Shown here: positions 672 through 21,409 of the stretch, piece after piece
Layout of the letters: each line of letters starts with the position of its first letter
Position numbering within the stretch: the first letter of the stretch is position 1
Source of the DNA: a virus
DNA length: 24,363 nt
IMG/VR virus record: IMGVR_UViG_3300031624_000012
Span: 1-24,363 of that record
Strand: one strand, 5' to 3'
Notes under the pieces: generated by a model
Database searches by the model: none
Told to the model about the DNA's origin: nothing
The model's input: only the letters and a program-made list of their open reading frames with translations
Made by a program: the position numbers and the translations under genes

Positions 672-2337
672 AAAGCTGGGCGAACAGCGAGTTGCAGAAG
701 TCATACATTTTTTCGAGCATAGACTTCATCATACTAAGGGGCGATGGGCCGGCCAGCTCTTCAAGCTTCTCCCCTGGCAGCGGGAACTGATCACAAAGTT
801 ATTTGGTACGCTAAAACCGGATGGAACCAGGCAGTACAATTATGTCTATTGCGAGATCCCGAAAAAGAATGGCAAGAGTGAGTTAGCAGCCGGCGTGGCC
901 CTTTATCTTCTCTTCGCAGACCATGAGCCGGGGGCGGAAATCTACAGTGCGGCAAGTGATAGAGATCAGGCGAGTATTGTTTTCAATGTCGCCGCGCAGA
1001 TGGTCAGATATTCGAAGCTTCTTTCCAGCAAATGCAAGATCATAGATTCGACTAAACGTATCGTCCATCATAATGGCGGTGTATACCGTGTACTTTCGGC
1101 CGAGGCCTATTCCAAACATGGCTACAATATCCATGGATGTATTTTTGATGAGCTACATACACAGCCGAACCGCGATCTCTTTGATGTACTTACCAAAGGT
1201 GCCGGCGATGCACGATTGCAGCCTTTGTTTTTCATGATTACTACGGCCGGTTATGATAGGCATTCGATTTGCTGGGAGGTGCATGAACACGCCCGGCAGG
1301 TACGGGATGGAATTATAAAAGATCCTACGTTCCTGCCAGTGCTTTATTTCGCGCCGGAAGATGCGGAATGGACTGATCAGAAAGTATGGGAAGGCTGCAA
1401 TCCTTCCATGACTACCCTGTATGAGGATGGCAGCGGGATACTCGATCCGAAAAAAATAAAAGCCCACTGTCGCCGCGCCCTGGATAATCCAGCGGAAGAG
1501 AATATGTTTCGGCGGCTGCGGCTGAACCAGTGGGTAAAACAAGAATCCCGCTATATCCCCATGAAGGCTTGGGATGCCTGCGGAGATCCGTTTGTACCGG
1601 ACTTGCTGAAAGGTAAGGACTGTTATGCTGGCTTGGACCTCGCTTCATCTATTGATGTTGCTGCGCTAGTGCTTGCATTTAAACAAGATGATTTGATTTA
1701 TGTGCTTCCCTATTTCTGGGTGCCGGGAGATAATATTGAGAAGCGGGCCCGCACCGACAAAGTGCCATATGATGAATGGGTACGGCAGGGATTCATCAAA
1801 GCTACGCCAGGGAATGTAATCGATTACGCAACCATTCGTCATGACATAAATGAATTGAGTAAAACTTTCGAGATAAAGGAAGTCGCCTTCGATCGCTGGG
1901 GTGCGGTGGAGATGTCGCAAAATCTTACTGATGATGGATTTATGATGGTGGATTTCGGCCAGGGATATAAGAGCATGAGCCCGCCGACTAAGGAGTTGCT
2001 CAAATTGATTCTGGCCGGGAAAATTCGACATGGCGCAAATCCGGTTCTTAGATGGATGTGCGATAATACTGTAGTTGTCATTGATTCAGCAGAAAATGTG
2101 AAACCTGATAAAAGTAAGAGTACAGAAAGAATTGATGGAATTGTAGCGATGATCATGGCAACCGATCGCCTGACAAGAAAAGAGCCGCCTAGCGTTTATG
2201 AAGAGCGCGGGATTATTGCAGTAGAGGCGGAAGAGAAAAAGCAAGAAGAAAAAGAAGAGCAGGAAGAGAAACCATTGGGAATGATGAACCCGCGGCAAAG
2301 ACGACAGAGATATCAAACGCTTGACAAAAAAGTATGA
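646..2337 (+). CDS. terL: terminase large subunit (packaging ATPase and nuclease)
   Basis: A 563-residue HK97/Terminase_1-type large subunit. The ATPase domain shows a Walker A IPKKNGKS (71-78), a Walker B CIFDE (165-169) and a coupling motif TTAGYD (199-204). The C-terminal RNase H-like nuclease has acidic residues at D331 (GLDLASS), D416 (AFDRWG) and D497 (ERIDG), as expected for metal binding. The protein drives DNA into the prohead and cuts it. The last 45 residues are a highly charged Glu/Lys tail. An in-frame ATG at 655 is an alternative start; GAGG at 648-651 is close to it. The order terS-terL-portal is canonical. Confidence 0.95.
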   Translation: MRKMATSIKKLGEQRVAEVIHFFEHRLHHTKGRWAGQLFKLLPWQRELITKLFGTLKPDGTRQYNYVYCEIPKKNGKSELAAGVALYLLFADHEPGAEIYSAASDRDQASIVFNVAAQMVRYSKLLSSKCKIIDSTKRIVHHNGGVYRVLSAEAYSKHGYNIHGCIFDELHTQPNRDLFDVLTKGAGDARLQPLFFMITTAGYDRHSICWEVHEHARQVRDGIIKDPTFLPVLYFAPEDAEWTDQKVWEGCNPSMTTLYEDGSGILDPKKIKAHCRRALDNPAEENMFRRLRLNQWVKQESRYIPMKAWDACGDPFVPDLLKGKDCYAGLDLASSIDVAALVLAFKQDDLIYVLPYFWVPGDNIEKRARTDKVPYDEWVRQGFIKATPGNVIDYATIRHDINELSKTFEIKEVAFDRWGAVEMSQNLTDDGFMMVDFGQGYKSMSPPTKELLKLILAGKIRHGANPVLRWMCDNTVVVIDSAENVKPDKSKSTERIDGIVAMIMATDRLTRKEPPSVYEERGIIAVEAEEKKQEEKEEQEEKPLGMMNPRQRRQRYQTLDKKV

Positions 2338-2348
2338 TGTGTTAGATT
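2321..2348 (+). promoter_or_regulatory. possible sigma-70 promoter before the portal gene
   Basis: A perfect -35 TTGACA (2321-2326) is followed after 16 bp by TAGATT (2343-2348), a 4/6 match to the -10 consensus. It overlaps the last codons of terL and precedes the 70-nt gap and hairpin ahead of the portal gene. The weak -10 makes this tentative. Confidence 0.35.
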
Positions 2349-2365
2349 TATATACAAACTGGGAC

Positions 2366-2396
2366 ACCGCACAACTCGGCCCCGACCGGGGGTGAG
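2366..2396 (+). promoter_or_regulatory. portal leader hairpin covering the ribosome site
   Basis: The motif ACCGCACAA (2366-2374) is followed by an imperfect hairpin: CTC (2375-2377) pairs with GAG (2394-2396) and CCCC (2380-2383) with GGGG (2388-2391) around the loop GACC. The G-rich arm (GGGGGTGAG, 2388-2396) is the only plausible Shine-Dalgarno for the TTG start at 2408, so the hairpin would hide it. A copy of the same motif precedes the prohead protease gene at 4624. Confidence 0.45.
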
Positions 2397-2407
2397 ATAT
2401 CGCTCTC

Positions 2408-4420
2408 TTGAATAGACTATCTAAAATCCTCAAAGCATCGCGTATGTCTGTTTCTGATTTGGATGAAATTATTGATAAACAGCAGACGGGAATACCAACG
2501 CAATCTGGTATAAAAATATCTCATGATATGGCACTTAATTTTTCTGCCGTATTTAATGCTAACTATATAATTTCGAATACTGTAGCATCTCTTCCTTGCA
2601 TTTTATATCGCCGTATTGATGAGCATAATAAAGAAAGAGCTACTGATCATCCTTTATATGATGTACTTCATAATCAACCTAATCCCGAAATGACTTCTTA
2701 TAATTTCCGTGAAATGATGCAATCTAGTCTTAATATGCGCGGAAATGCCTGTGGAGAAATAATAACTGATAAACTTGGTAGGACAGTGGAAGTATGGCCT
2801 TGGAATTATGCTGATGTAAAAGTAGAACGAGACAAAGAAACAAATAAAATTATTTATAGATTAAGACAGAAAGACGGAAGTCAAGATAAAATATATCCAG
2901 CAGAAAAAGTCTTTCATGTCCCTGGTCTCGGGTATGATGGCCGCGTTGGTTATTCGATTCTTCAACTAGCCCGCGAGACAATGGGACTCGGCCTTGCTAT
3001 GGAAACATTCCAGGCCCGTTTCTATGGAGCTGGAACAAATATTGGCGGATTTCTTGCACATCCAGGACGACTTGGTGATAAAGCATTAGAACATCTACAG
3101 GAAAGCATCAAGAAAAAATATAGCGGTCTATTAAAATCTCATGGTTTGATGATCCTTGAAGAGGGCATGAAATTTGAGAAATCTGGTATGCCCTTGGAGG
3201 ATGCGCAGTTTCTTGAAAGTCGGGTGTTTCAGATAGGCGAAATAGCCCGCTGGTTCAATCTTCCACCACATAAGTTAAAGGAATTAACCCGTGCCACATT
3301 TTCAAATATTGAAGAGCAGCAGATAGAATTTGTGCAGGACTCCATACGCCCCTGGCTGATACGGTGGGAGCAGCACATTTCCTGGAAGCTTCTCACTAAG
3401 GAAGAGCGCAAGCAATATTTCGCTGAGTTTCTTGTTGATGGACTTTTGCGCGGGGATACAGAATCGAGAATGAAAGCCTACTTAATTGAAAGACAGAATG
3501 GCATCATAGATGCGAATGAATGGCGCGCCCGCGAAAACAGAAATCCCCTGGAAGGCAAGGCTGGTAAGGCAATCTGGATGCCCTTGAATATGATAGATGC
3601 TAATGCTCCGCTGCCGGAGCCAAAAGCAAAAGAGCCTTTTAAGCCGAAGCAAGAAGGCGAGGAAGAGAAAAGCCTACCCAATTTCGAGTTGCGGGCCTTG
3701 CGCTCGTTGAAAGCGAGACGCCGGATAGCAGAAGTCTATAAAGAAGTTTTTCGGGCAGTTGAGAAAGACATACTCTCAAAAGAGATTCCAGCGGTAAAAA
3801 AGATAATGCGCAAAACCTTGAAAACCCGCGACATAAAACAATTTGTCGATAGCATGGGAGAATTCTACACTGAATTCAGGGAATATGTAAGACAGCGGTT
3901 TGCCGGATTGTTTGCTACTTATGGCGAGGCTATTTATCCGCTGGCCGCCGAAGAGATAGGTGCAAGCCCGGATCTCACCGATGAGTATAGAGTCTATTTA
4001 GTTGAGCATGCAGATCATTCGACAAACCGCTATATTGAAAGCTCGCGCGGACAGCTAAAATCCGTGGCGTTCAAGCACCGAGAAAACGATCCAGTAAAGG
4101 CCATAGAACAAAGATTGGCCGAATGGGAAGAGAAGCGCCCAGACAAGATAGCCGATTTAGAAGTGGTGAATGGGGAATGTGGTACAGCCCAATTTGTTTA
4201 TTATGCCGCCGGTCTGCGGACTGTTTGGGTAACATTTGATGATAGCTGTCCATATTGCGAATCACTTAATGGAATGACAATAAGCAGAGGCATGAGCTTC
4301 ATAAATGCCGGGACCGATTTCAAGCCTCCAGGGGCTGACATTCCGTTAAAAGTAAGTCAGAATATTTCGCATCCGGCAGCGCATGAAGGATGTGACTGCT
4401 CAGTGAGGGCTGCATTATGA
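2408..4420 (+). CDS. portal protein with fused MuF-like (SPP1 gp7) C-terminal domain
   Basis: A 670-residue protein. Residues 1-400 are an HK97-family portal: the region around HPLYDVLHNQPNPEMTSYNF (81-100) and the PWNYADVKV segment (131-139) are typical. The portal forms the dodecameric DNA gate and binds terminase. A charged Pro/Glu/Lys linker (about 400-425) joins it to a helical region and a C-terminal MuF-like module with CPYC (614-617), H655, H659 and CDC (662-664). Normally portal and MuF proteins are separate adjacent genes. The start is a TTG; the next ATG (2444) has no ribosome site. Codons in roughly the first 170 residues are clearly more AT-rich than the rest, suggesting recombination inside the gene. 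Confidence 0.88.
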   Translation: MNRLSKILKASRMSVSDLDEIIDKQQTGIPTQSGIKISHDMALNFSAVFNANYIISNTVASLPCILYRRIDEHNKERATDHPLYDVLHNQPNPEMTSYNFREMMQSSLNMRGNACGEIITDKLGRTVEVWPWNYADVKVERDKETNKIIYRLRQKDGSQDKIYPAEKVFHVPGLGYDGRVGYSILQLARETMGLGLAMETFQARFYGAGTNIGGFLAHPGRLGDKALEHLQESIKKKYSGLLKSHGLMILEEGMKFEKSGMPLEDAQFLESRVFQIGEIARWFNLPPHKLKELTRATFSNIEEQQIEFVQDSIRPWLIRWEQHISWKLLTKEERKQYFAEFLVDGLLRGDTESRMKAYLIERQNGIIDANEWRARENRNPLEGKAGKAIWMPLNMIDANAPLPEPKAKEPFKPKQEGEEEKSLPNFELRALRSLKARRRIAEVYKEVFRAVEKDILSKEIPAVKKIMRKTLKTRDIKQFVDSMGEFYTEFREYVRQRFAGLFATYGEAIYPLAAEEIGASPDLTDEYRVYLVEHADHSTNRYIESSRGQLKSVAFKHRENDPVKAIEQRLAEWEEKRPDKIADLEVVNGECGTAQFVYYAAGLRTVWVTFDDSCPYCESLNGMTISRGMSFINAGTDFKPPGADIPLKVSQNISHPAAHEGCDCSVRAAL

Positions 4421-4630: not shown

Positions 4631-4669
4631 AAACCGGCCCGTTCTCGATTGAGGACTGGCCGGTTTTTT
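4631..4669 (+). terminator. rho-independent terminator before the protease gene
   Basis: AAACCGGCC (4631-4639) pairs with GGCCGGTTT (4658-4666). An inner stem GTTCTC/GAGGAC (4641-4646/4651-4656) closes on a GATT loop, and six T follow (4664-4669). It sits inside the late operon, only 15 nt from the protease start, so it is likely to be partial or regulated. Confidence 0.8.
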
Positions 4670-4683
4670 ATTTGGAGGCAAAA

Positions 4684-5592
4684 ATGCCATTACCAAAACC
4701 GAAAAATAGTGAAGAACAAGATGAATGGATTAAACGTTGTATGTCTAATGATTCGATGAAAAAAGAATTTCCCGACAACGATCAACGCCTAGCCGTATGT
4801 TTTCAAAAATGGCGCGACAAAGACAAAAAGGATTTTACCCCGCAAATCGAGCGCCGCTATTTCGATAATTTTGAGATACGCCTTTCCAGCTCTAATGATG
4901 GAGAAGAGAGCGATACCATCACCGGCTATGCGGCTGTTTTCAATCGATGGAGTGAGGACTTGGGATTCTTTAAAGAAAAGATAGCCCCCGGCGCCTTCAA
5001 GAAAACAATCCAAGAGAATGATATCCGCGCCCTGATTAATCACGATCCTAATCTCATAATCGGCCGCACAAAAAACAAAACACTTAAGCTCTGGGAGGAT
5101 GATGAAGGATTAGGATTTGAGGTCAAACTTCCAGATACCTCTTATGCCTCCGATCTGCGAGAAAGCATCAAGCGCAAAGATATCACGCAAAACAGTTTTG
5201 GTTTCCAGACAATCAAAGACGAATGGTCACAGGATGGCAAAAAACGAACGCTTATTGAAGCGAGATTGTTTGATGTTTCGCCGGTGACATTCCCGGCGTA
5301 TAAACAGACTACAGTGAAAATGCGACTACAGGAAATAGGAATCGATTATGAAACCCTGAACATGGCGCTCATCCGTGCCGATCGGGGTGTAATAACTGAT
5401 TCCGATGTGGACTTGATTGAATCGACAATAGCAATTCTGAGGACATATATACCAGCCGAGGAAGAGCCGAACATTGTGGCCGAAAACGGTCCTGTTCACT
5501 CTCCAGCCGACATAGAGCCGGAGCTAGTCTCCACTCTGATACGTGCCAGGATGGCGAATATGCGAATCAGGAGATATTTATCTAGGAGGTAA
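4684..5592 (+). CDS. prohead protease, HK97 family, with an extra N-terminal domain
   Basis: A 302-residue protein. Residues 57-212 are a U35/HK97-type prohead maturation protease, with the catalytic His in INHDP (H120) and the Ser in QNSFGF (S171); E192 in IEARLFDVSPVTFPAY is a candidate third residue. It trims capsid subunits and scaffold during head maturation. Residues 1-45 (start MPLPKPKNSEEQDEWI, then C19 and QRLAVCFQKW) form a small Cys-containing module found before other phage head proteins, and the C-terminal 90 residues are acidic. The start at 4684 is fixed by TTGGAGG at 4672-4678. The gene sits directly upstream of the capsid gene (5-nt gap). Confidence 0.9.
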   Translation: MPLPKPKNSEEQDEWIKRCMSNDSMKKEFPDNDQRLAVCFQKWRDKDKKDFTPQIERRYFDNFEIRLSSSNDGEESDTITGYAAVFNRWSEDLGFFKEKIAPGAFKKTIQENDIRALINHDPNLIIGRTKNKTLKLWEDDEGLGFEVKLPDTSYASDLRESIKRKDITQNSFGFQTIKDEWSQDGKKRTLIEARLFDVSPVTFPAYKQTTVKMRLQEIGIDYETLNMALIRADRGVITDSDVDLIESTIAILRTYIPAEEEPNIVAENGPVHSPADIEPELVSTLIRARMANMRIRRYLSRR

Positions 5593-18266: not shown

Positions 18267-18490
18267 GTGAACAGCAACAGGAAGATTTAGCCCAACAGTT
18301 GCGCATCCGGGAATTCCTGGATCAGACCGCTAAGACGGTGGCCGAGAACTGCGGACATATTAAGACGATGCGAAGAGATATTCGGGAGATCAAGAAGAAT
18401 AGCGATTTCACGCGAAAGGCCGTCAGCATGATGATGACATTTCTGGAAGTAAGACTGAACGGCGGGAAGCACATAGATGAACGAACCTAG
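18263..18490 (+). CDS. small helical hypothetical protein
   Basis: A 75-residue basic, helical protein (QQLRIREFLDQTAKTVAENC, then KTMRRDIREIKKN). The ATG shares ATGA with the previous stop, and its end overlaps the next gene by 14 nt. There is no membrane segment, so it is not a holin of the XhlA type, although its place before the lysis genes is similar. Confidence 0.6.
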   Translation: MSEQQQEDLAQQLRIREFLDQTAKTVAENCGHIKTMRRDIREIKKNSDFTRKAVSMMMTFLEVRLNGGKHIDERT

Positions 18491-18896
18491 ACAGAAAATC
18501 ATGCTCACATTGGGCGAGGGCGGCTGCTACTTCCTGAGCATGGTACGATTGGCCGAAGATTTGCTCGGAAAGCGCATAGACGCGGTGCTGGAATTTCAGA
18601 AGTGCGTGGCAATGAATCTTTGCCGGGAAGATTGCTATATCTATGATCCGGCAGCGATCATGCACCAACTCTATGGTGGTGATTGGAGAGCCCGCAAAGA
18701 GGACGCTGATTATGAGCCGATAGACGGAGAATTTGAGATTCTTCGATTCGAACGATCCACGCCAGCGAGAATCTATAGCCATTTTGTACTCGGTAGCAAT
18801 AAAGGAGAAGTGGAGTATGACCCATTGGGCAACTCGAATACCGTAGCGCATGGCCAATTGGTATCCAAGAGGATACTTCGATTGATTGCGACATGA
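18477..18896 (+). CDS. DUF261-like protein, candidate cysteine peptidase (lysis)
   Basis: A 139-residue protein that I recognise as similar to DUF261, a family described from Borrelia plasmids and related prophages. It has a papain-like pattern: GEGGCYFLSMVRLAE with C17, then H102 in YSHFVLGSN, and D115/N119 in YDPLGNSNTV. A C-H-D/N order of this kind suggests a C39/NlpC-like fold, so it may cut peptidoglycan peptides as an endolysin. It comes directly before the holin-like gene, as a lysin would. No signal peptide is seen. The enzymatic role is inference; the family resemblance is from memory. Confidence 0.6.
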   Translation: MNEPRQKIMLTLGEGGCYFLSMVRLAEDLLGKRIDAVLEFQKCVAMNLCREDCYIYDPAAIMHQLYGGDWRARKEDADYEPIDGEFEILRFERSTPARIYSHFVLGSNKGEVEYDPLGNSNTVAHGQLVSKRILRLIAT

Positions 18897-19111
18897 ATGC
18901 CAAACGATTCATACAGATAGCCTGGGTATGTGAGGTAATATGGCTGCTTCTCAATTGGACAATTTGCCTTTATCTTTTACCTAATCGAGCCGAGTTGTTC
19001 ATACGGGCGCTTCCTTTGCTTTCGAGTTTGATAGGCGGTCAAGGCCTCTTTGCTGCTGTCGGACCCGAAGTCAAACGGTGGATTGAATCAAAGAATGGAG
19101 GGGGTATGTGA
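18893..19111 (+). CDS. holin-like membrane protein
   Basis: A 72-residue protein with a basic start, two hydrophobic segments (8-29 and 35-57) and a charged C-terminus (KRWIESKNGG). This is the outline of a two-pass class II holin, which opens the inner membrane at lysis. It overlaps the peptidase-like gene before it (ATGA) and the spanin-like genes after it. The family is not recognised, and the holin assignment rests on topology and context. Confidence 0.62.
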   Translation: MNAKRFIQIAWVCEVIWLLLNWTICLYLLPNRAELFIRALPLLSSLIGGQGLFAAVGPEVKRWIESKNGGGM

Positions 19112-19518
19112 GTGTTAAAATCAAGTGGCTTTTCCTTGTGGCGATTGTGGCGGGCTTGGCCGGCTTGGCGGTTGGGGCGCGGTTTAATCTGTTTGATTTT
19201 TCTGGCCTTGGTTCTCGCATATCCGGCCTGGAACGCTCCCTTGGAAGACTCGGAACCGGACTGGCTGGAGCTCAAGAATTACTTGGACGAGATTGGCAGC
19301 GGCTTGCAGATGACCGAGCAGCCCTTGAGCGAGATAGAGAGCTATTTCATCAACGAGAGCGAGCGATTGAGGCAAGAGAAGGCAGACTTACAGAACGAGA
19401 AGCAGCAGTTGCAGCAGGAGAAGAACAGCTTAGACAAACGCGAGCAGGCCTTGAGCGAGCGGGAGAAGGACTTAGACAAGCGCGAGAGTTTGTACGACGG
19501 TATGCAGACGGACCTTGA
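19108..19518 (+). CDS. possible inner spanin-like protein (frame 1 of an overlapping pair)
   Basis: A 136-residue reading frame starting at GTG 19108: an N-terminal membrane segment (6-24, LFLVAIVAGLAGLAVG) followed by a long charged coiled coil to the end. That is the outline of Rz-type inner spanins. It overlaps the frame at 19112 over its whole remaining length. The ribosome site GGAGGGGG (19097-19104) is only 3 nt from this start. It is less certain than the other frame because repeated Glu/Lys codons can produce helix-like composition in neighbouring frames. Confidence 0.4.
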   Translation: MSVKIKWLFLVAIVAGLAGLAVGARFNLFDFSGLGSRISGLERSLGRLGTGLAGAQELLGRDWQRLADDRAALERDRELFHQRERAIEAREGRLTEREAAVAAGEEQLRQTRAGLERAGEGLRQAREFVRRYADGP

Positions 19519-19630
19519 GGATGCCACGACGGCGCTCAAGAGGGCAAAGATCCTAGGTATCATCATCACAGTAGCAGTTGCAACTGCGGCAGGTTATGGT
19601 GGTTATCGATTGGGTAAGGCAATTAACTAG
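19112..19630 (+). CDS. membrane-anchored coiled-coil protein, spanin candidate
   Basis: A 172-residue protein starting at GTG 19112, 7 nt after GGAGGGGG. It has an N-terminal hydrophobic segment (24-40), a long coiled coil (about 75-145, with heptad-like LQNEKQQLQQEKNSL) and a C-terminal hydrophobic segment (147-164). A protein with membrane segments at both ends can span the periplasm, like unimolecular spanins, which join the inner and outer membrane at lysis. Alternatively it is a lysis-module partner of the frame at 19108. It ends at 19630 in a CTAG shared tail-to-tail with the - strand gene. Confidence 0.62.
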   Translation: MLKSSGFSLWRLWRAWPAWRLGRGLICLIFLALVLAYPAWNAPLEDSEPDWLELKNYLDEIGSGLQMTEQPLSEIESYFINESERLRQEKADLQNEKQQLQQEKNSLDKREQALSEREKDLDKRESLYDGMQTDLEDATTALKRAKILGIIITVAVATAAGYGGYRLGKAIN

Positions 19631-19980
19631 GGCTGATTTTCATTGCTGATTCGCAGATAGAAACGATTATATCCTGAATAATCGCCCTTAAAGTAAAAAT
19701 CCTCAAATTCATGAATGCACATATGCTCGGCACCTAATATCAGCATCCCAAAACGAATTTGCGCAAAGGCAGTAAATTCGGCCTGAAAAGGTGTAAAGAA
19801 AGGTACACCGCTTGGTATAAATCGATTTTTGACAATCCCGCCCAACTCCAGATGTTCCCACATGAGAACGCTGGCTTCCATCTCGGCATAGCCGTGCCAA
19901 TCCACTTCATGGCCGTCAAGCAGAAAATCGGTGTTCTCAACGCCGAGAGTTAGAGAAAAAAGGAAAATTAACCAAGTCAT
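19627..19980 (-). CDS. secreted beta-rich protein, possible small outer-membrane barrel
   Basis: A 117-residue protein with a short hydrophobic start (MTWLIFLFSLTLGVE) that looks like a signal peptide. Beta-strand-like stretches follow (AEMEASVLMWEHLELGGIV, FQAEFTAFAQIRFGMLILG) with an EHMCIHEFEDF motif and a final YNRFYLRIS strand. It is on the opposite strand with its own promoter, as are many lysogenic-conversion genes. The start is fixed by GGAGG 5 nt upstream. I recall similar sequences from prophages but cannot name a family. It could alter the host surface. Confidence 0.65.
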   Translation of the reverse strand: MTWLIFLFSLTLGVENTDFLLDGHEVDWHGYAEMEASVLMWEHLELGGIVKNRFIPSGVPFFTPFQAEFTAFAQIRFGMLILGAEHMCIHEFEDFYFKGDYSGYNRFYLRISNENQP

Positions 19981-19990
19981 ATCATCCTCC

Positions 19991-20072
19991 AAAAAATCCC
20001 CCGCACCGGTGTGAGCGCAAGAATAGACTTGCCCGGTTTGGGGGATAATTGCTGGTGATTTCTTGCGCTCAC
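19991..20072 (-). promoter_or_regulatory. leader with competing terminator and 13-bp alternative stem
   Basis: Read on the - strand, GTGAGCGCAAGAA (20072-20060) can pair with TTCTTGCGCTCAC (20023-20011). Between and after these lies a terminator: ATCCCCC (20046-20040) with GGGGGAT (20002-19996), CCGG (20036-20033) with CCGG (20009-20006), an inner GCAAG/CTTGC, then six T (19996-19991) directly before GGAGG. The CTTGC strand belongs to both structures, so they compete, as in an attenuator. The whole unit lies between promoter and start codon. Confidence 0.6.
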
Positions 20073-20078
20073 AATTAT

Positions 20079-20107
20079 AGCATAGTCCATATCGGTTACT
20101 TTATCAA
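20079..20107 (-). promoter_or_regulatory. promoter of the - strand secreted-protein gene
   Basis: On the - strand TTGATA (20107-20102) and TATGCT (20084-20079) are 17 bp apart; a perfect TATAAT (20079-20074) lies next to it. It is followed at once by the attenuator-like leader. Confidence 0.5.
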
Positions 20108-20400: not shown

Positions 20401-20423
20401 AAAAGCCGGGATTACTCCCGGCT
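20399..20423 (-). terminator. terminator of the two-gene - strand unit
   Basis: On the - strand AGCCGGGA (20423-20416) and TCCCGGCT (20411-20404) form a perfect 8-bp stem around a 4-nt loop (GTAA) that includes the TAA stop of the gene at 20765-20412. Six T follow (20404-20399). Confidence 0.8.
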
Positions 20424-20765
20424 CTTCCGTGGGCGTCCTTTGGGCCAACCGCCCAGCTTGGCGTTCTCCCGCACGGCCTTGGTCTTGGCTTCGCTGCGGA
20501 CCGAGCCGCCCTTGCGGCCGAGAGCCGCAGCTGCTGCTGATAATTCTGCTTCTGCTTCAACTGCCGATTGCTCGATTATGTCAACTCCGACGGCTTCCGC
20601 CGCCTCGCGGGTAATCTGATACCATACGCCGAGATGTTTGGCAGACTCCAACACCGCAACCACGTTGTCGAGTCCGTCGGCCCGCAATACTCGCTTGACA
20701 TGAGGACGCTTGGACACGTCCGGCCAATTATGGAGTACATCATAAGATCTCTTGGTCCAGCCCAT
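20412..20765 (-). CDS. hypothetical protein with basic Gly-rich tail
   Basis: A 117-residue protein. The first 70 residues are mixed helical (SYDVLHNWPDVSKRPHVKRV, 7-26; AKHLGVWYQITREAAEAVG). The end, GRKGGSVRSEAKTKAVREN followed by KGRPRKS, has the Ser-Glu-Ala-Lys and GRP pattern seen at the tail of many small bacterial and phage proteins and could bind nucleic acid. The start is set by GAGGAGG and the stop lies inside a terminator. It is transcribed with the gene at 21205. Function is unknown. Confidence 0.65.
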   Translation of the reverse strand: MGWTKRSYDVLHNWPDVSKRPHVKRVLRADGLDNVVAVLESAKHLGVWYQITREAAEAVGVDIIEQSAVEAEAELSAAAAALGRKGGSVRSEAKTKAVRENAKLGGWPKGRPRKSRE

Positions 20766-21236: not shown

Positions 21237-21266
21237 AGTATATAGCTAACCGTTTAGGCTTGTCAA
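21237..21266 (-). promoter_or_regulatory. sigma-70 promoter for the - strand gene pair
   Basis: On the - strand a perfect TTGACA (21266-21261) is followed after 16 bp by TATATA (21244-21239), or after 18 bp by TATACT (21242-21237). It lies 30 bp before the start of the gene at 21205 and diverges from the + strand promoter at 21382. Confidence 0.7.
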
Positions 21267-21381: not shown

Positions 21382-21409
21382 TTGACAAGTTCCCGGGAAG
21401 TGCTATAAT
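21382..21409 (+). promoter_or_regulatory. near-consensus promoter with palindrome in the spacer
   Basis: TTGACA (21382-21387) and TATAAT (21404-21409) are both perfect and 16 bp apart. The spacer contains the palindrome TTCCCGGGAA (21390-21399), and a related TTCCCAGAA lies just upstream (21357-21365). Both could be repressor sites. It would drive the small genes to the right. Confidence 0.85.

Follow-up and report, generated by a model that had tools for sequence, protein, structure and literature searches.

A candidate transcription attenuator without a recognisable aptamer in the leader of a phage open reading frame

On the minus strand of an IMG/VR virus record of 24,363 bases, with genes for terminase, portal, head and tail, a long inverted repeat and a terminator lie between a promoter-like stretch and an open reading frame (ORF). 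What might such an arrangement do? We analysed the whole record, referred to here as the window. An earlier note had described the locus as attenuator-like in architecture, and the sequence, shuffled controls and folding energies support that description. Our best single reading, to which we give slightly under even chances, is that the leader is a transcription attenuator that lacks an aptamer, i.e., a conditional terminator. On the minus strand, the order is promoter, arm 1 of the repeat, 13 nt, AUCCCCC, the interior with arm 2, GGGGGAU, T6, GGAGG and ATG 19980. The parts are as follows.

20079..20107, minus strand: promoter-like TTGATA-17-TATGCT, 9/12 consensus matches
20074..20082, minus strand: perfect extended -10 TGCTATAAT, overlapping the TATGCT promoter, from a motif scan
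20060..20073, minus strand: arm 1, proposed antiterminator strand, TGTGAGCGCAAGAA, from an inverted-repeat search and shuffles
20040..20046, minus strand: 5' strand of the outer terminator stem, AUCCCCC, from folding
20010..20023, minus strand: arm 2, inside the terminator, TTCTTGCGCTCACA, from an inverted-repeat search and shuffles
19996..20002, minus strand: 3' strand of the outer terminator stem, GGGGGAU, from folding
19991..19996, minus strand: U-tract of six T, from the sequence
19986..19990, minus strand: Shine-Dalgarno GGAGG directly 3' of the U-tract, from the sequence
19627..19980, minus strand: putatively controlled ORF of 117 amino acids with ATG at 19980 and coding-like codon use

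The 14-nt repeat is far beyond chance, and chance is excluded as its source. The arms (20073-20060 and 20023-20010) match at 100% and are 36 nt apart, so that the perfect 13-bp repeat reported before is indeed perfect but one base longer. No other inverted repeat in the window exceeds 9 nt, five bases fewer, and among 300 dinucleotide shuffles of the complete window a single one produced a repeat of 14. When the terminator was held fixed and the upstream 60 nt were shuffled, a 14-nt complement to the terminator interior arose once in 20,000. Mobile-element ends were considered and rejected, because the flanks ACCGG and ATTAT differ and there is thus no target duplication.

The intrinsic terminator (20046-19996, minus strand) has a folding energy of -26.2 kcal/mol alone and -26.7 kcal/mol (z -3.2) within a longer piece. 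Inside the AUCCCCC/GGGGGAU stem it contains the inner pairings ACCGG/CCGGU and GCAAG/CUUGC. A full terminator with six T had been proposed previously and is real, but the local stem proposed for it is not the stable form, which uses the upstream C-run; the G-U-rich local stem, in which arm 2 takes part, reaches just -10.4 kcal/mol. Likewise, the two folds do cross, but they do not have a whole strand in common: arm 2 lies mainly in the terminator loop and only its CUUGC belongs to the inner stem. The six T (19996-19991) directly adjoin GGAGG (19990-19986), which confirms the contact between terminator and ribosome site. This places a strong terminator between the promoter and the ribosome site, with no space for another promoter. 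The generic attenuator trait, an intrinsic terminator between promoter and start codon, is thus present, with the promoter recognised by consensus only. The element is not required as a terminator for the upstream minus-strand genes, as these have a strong one of their own:

20404..20421, minus strand: intrinsic terminator GCCGGGAGTAATCCCGGC-T6, which ends the upstream genes 21223-20412

Two overlapping promoter elements predict different RNA starts. From the spacing, we infer that the TTGATA/TATGCT promoter would start RNA at about 20072 and would include arm 1 at nearly full length. The better -10, TGCTATAAT, would start RNA at about 20067 (20068-20066), leaving only 7-9 nt of arm 1. TGnTATAAT occurs five times in the window against 1.06 expected, and TGCTATAAT is identical to the -10 of the consensus promoter at 21382-21409. 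Near-consensus divergent promoters at 21237-21266 (minus strand, 11/12) and 21382-21409 (plus strand, 12/12) flank about 115 bp that are probably an early control region.

Only a transcription start near 20072 leaves the two folds in balance. For RNA from this position, the arm hairpin and the terminator are 0.1 kcal/mol apart at the point where the terminator stem has just been completed, and the terminator is ahead by 1.9 kcal/mol once the U-tract is out. The lead of the terminator grows to 4.4, 8.9 and 12.4 kcal/mol for starts at 20070, 20068 and 20067, and with starts near 20067 the advantage of the terminator within the U-tract is 9-14 kcal/mol. By these energies, an alternative fold that excludes the terminator would be available with a start near 20072 but not with one near 20067. 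When transcripts that start at 20072 are folded as they lengthen, the arm hairpin wins while the growing end lies between about 20012 and about 20000, and the terminator is preferred only from 19997 on. A heuristic that ignores pseudoknots puts the refolding barrier along the direct path at 22.6 kcal/mol. Near-equal energies combined with such a barrier suggest that read-through would be the default with the 20072 start, and that masking or shortening of arm 1 would cause termination. The mutual exclusion claimed earlier applies to nested folds, in which only one of the two forms, but arm 1 paired with arm 2 and the outer 7-bp stem can also be drawn together as a pseudoknot. The outer stem alone has -12.1 kcal/mol, and it might coexist with the arm hairpin and still terminate. 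A translational switch was also considered and rejected, as the accessibility of the ribosome site is not improved in the antiterminator state.

We interpret these features as a potential attenuation mechanism. RNA polymerase would start at the promoter before 20073, and a short 5' leader would come first. An arm 1 that is present in the RNA and not masked would pair with the emerging arm 2 before GGGGGAU is made, and the 14-bp arm hairpin would trap the C-rich strand of the terminator in its loop, so that the polymerase would read into the gene. With arm 1 absent due to a later start, or masked by a protein or an antisense RNA, the terminator would fold and transcription would end just ahead of the ribosome site. 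An unlikely variant is that attenuation is gated, without ligand, peptide or protein, by the choice between two -10 elements that overlap at an offset of five bases, TATGCT (start at about 20072) and TATAAT (start at about 20067). The -10 used would then decide how complete arm 1 is, and hence whether the downstream terminator is off or on.

The promoter overlap also bears on a different explanation, in which the inverted repeat acts in DNA as two sites for a regulator, the first over the start region (20060-20073) and the second some 50 bp further downstream, and the terminator is separate and partly leaky. We consider this improbable overall, but it deserves serious attention. Arm 1 begins at the first base 3' of TATAAT, so the 14-nt match reaches this hexamer. 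With a start near 20067 from the extended -10, the outer 5-6 bases of the repeat would be absent from the RNA although they are perfectly matched, which points to a role at the DNA level; for a repeat acting purely in RNA, a chance match there is expected about once in 1000-4000. The repeat probably does extend into untranscribed bases, which gives weight to the operator alternative. A site over the start region would also suit a repressor, and the first 12 bases of the arm, AATTGTGAGCGC, resemble what we take to be half of a lac-type operator. Against this, the 14-mer is hardly symmetrical within itself, inverted sites are not usually separated by 36 bp, and the location of arm 2 inside the only terminator with such a layout would be a coincidence. 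There was also no extra copy beyond chance in the window, which has three matches at up to 3 mismatches (2.4 expected), and none in the other loci compared.

Somewhat less probable again, but likewise a serious rival, is a constitutive, partly leaky terminator that simply lowers expression, next to a functionless recent inverted micro-duplication. Template switching is known to yield inverted copies of 10-20 bp. Terminators that adjoin ribosome sites and lack an arm recur in this phage group, and the window itself has a second one (at 4664):

4634..4669, plus strand: second terminator adjoining a Shine-Dalgarno site, before the prohead protease ATG at 4684, without an antiterminator arm

Terminator-like hairpins precede the ribosome site of the prohead protease in the window (4634-4684, plus strand) and in the phage contigs L026 (4008-4063) and L051 (6300-6341), and L062 has a hairpin at this position (about 5320-5378) with a shorter, weaker T-run. 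The position is the same in these four phages while the stem bases differ; no antiterminator arm was shown for any of the four, and the hairpin is absent in six other relatives examined. Since contact between a terminator and a ribosome site recurs in the group, this contact is not what is special at our locus; the 14-nt repeat is. The leaky-terminator reading does not predict that arm 1 would start exactly after the -10 hexamer or that arm 2 would lie wholly within the terminator.

We scanned IMG/VR with the pattern AUCCCCC, 25-50 nt, GGGGGAUUUUU and GGAG, which matched three contigs (L073, L074 and L075). L073 (9568-9638) was picked up by its terminator and ribosome site alone, and upstream it has a promoter-like stretch followed by GGTCGCGC and then TCGGTT. 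In the terminator loop, AACCGA and GCGCGACC form nested complements of these two stretches, and the resulting hairpin (-24.8) stays the most stable fold until the last terminator strand emerges. The sequence hints that this second phage contig may have a similar interlocked leader, with weak pairing statistics (29 of 1000 shuffles; 0.19 when scored against the whole hairpin). L074 and L075 have no comparable upstream pairing. Across 585 terminators in about 800 kb of loci, upstream pairing at p <= 0.05 was found for 4 of the 27 terminators that lie no more than 30 nt from a gene start (three without the window) versus 5.6% of the 558 others. Terminators before genes are therefore not clearly enriched in upstream pairing and form no clear general class.

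The downstream ORF has codon use like that of the structural genes of the phage (0.185 bits per codon). It had no match in PHROGs, Pfam, NCBIfam or PDB, and no relatives were detected in IMG/VR, GTDB genomes, INPHARED phages, PLSDB plasmids or 25 TerL-related viral records, where the genome and viral scans used short exact peptide patterns that detect close relatives only. No homologues of the leader were found either: a scan of IMG/VR with the exact arms as a pattern gave no match, and the loci of relatives reached via TerL, the tail protein, DUF261 and the 21223-20843 protein are without the element. A single-sequence AlphaFold model was uninformative (pLDDT 38). The N-terminus MTWLIFLFSLTLG is hydrophobic without positive charge and, with neither a family nor a PDB match nor a homologue, the description of the product as a secreted phage protein is unsupported. 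The coding-like codon use and the well-spaced GGAGG, a ribosome site that directly adjoins the terminator, argue against the idea that the unit, from promoter to terminator, yields a small RNA of about 75-80 nt with little expression of the ORF. The distance of 75-80 nt from the promoter to the strong terminator would suit such an RNA, and we regard this explanation as quite improbable.

On the plus strand, one ORF ends at 19630 and overlaps the end of the minus-strand ORF. We found no strong plus-strand terminator between this end and the leader, so late transcripts could run antisense through it. An antisense attenuator of the pT181 type, in which such late transcription or a small antisense RNA would mask arm 1 and force termination, has a similar layout (PMC5435934) but is very improbable, as the leader is far shorter than the approximately 320-nt leaders of the pIP501 type (PMC5703833) and no convincing plus-strand promoter leads into it (none between 18647 and 20231 by consensus only, a weak test). 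The plus-strand ORF is one of two long ORFs (19108-19518 and 19112-19630) that overlap in different frames, each with a hydrophobic N-terminus and a charged part that resembles a coiled coil. The pair resembles embedded spanin pairs, and the codon score of the alternative frame is positive (0.087). The neighbouring protein at 18477-18896 (plus strand) belongs to DUF261 (Pfam E 5.7e-17), which was otherwise found mainly in Borrelia and Borreliella plasmids, a weak hint that the host could be a spirochaete. On the other side of the leader, 32 residues near the C-terminus of the 20415-20762 protein (minus strand) are 87.5% identical to a Methanomicrobiales virus protein (BK063671), and the remainder of the protein is without a match.

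If the attenuator is real, it would be a very compact phage switch without a recognisable sensor, and it would allow a clean test of whether termination can hinge on a few 5'-terminal bases of an RNA. The recurrent layout of terminator and ribosome site in this phage group is absent from standard annotation.

How does the leader compare with known systems? A classical riboswitch, one option raised in the earlier note, is unlikely, as arm 1 and the terminator are just 13 nt apart, which leaves too few bases for an aptamer. A search of the leader against Rfam gave no family at the gathering score and only sub-threshold, implausible matches at E <= 5, in agreement with the note's remark that no known aptamer was recognisable. 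The absence of a leader peptide was also borne out: the frame from GTG 20072 to TGA 19977 has neither a ribosome site nor runs of regulatory codons nor a coding signal (0.032 bits per codon, non-coding-like). In bacterial operons such as trp (with TRAP) and pyr, protein-gated or start-site-gated attenuators have a mutually exclusive antiterminator and terminator in the 5' leader. The phage leader shares such competing folds but, unlike these, has no identified protein-binding motif and no leader peptide with regulatory codons.

The put RNAs of phage HK022 are likewise structured RNAs of about 70 nt just 3' of a phage promoter, but their two stem-loops make the polymerase ignore distant terminators (PMC9378689), whereas the arm hairpin and terminator compete locally here. 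In the pT181 rep attenuators, an antiterminator sequence prevents a terminator beside the ribosome site from forming (PMC5435934). With the pT181 and pIP501 rep-mRNA attenuators, our leader shares a 5' antiterminator and an intrinsic terminator in the 5' UTR that adjoins the ribosome site of the controlled gene. It differs from them in that it has no evident antisense promoter, is much shorter and precedes a gene that is not a recognised replication gene, and in that arm 1 pairs with the terminator interior and not with its 5' stem strand. In its layout, the phage leader would thus work most like the pT181 rep attenuators, a likeness that we propose as an analogy and not as membership of that family.
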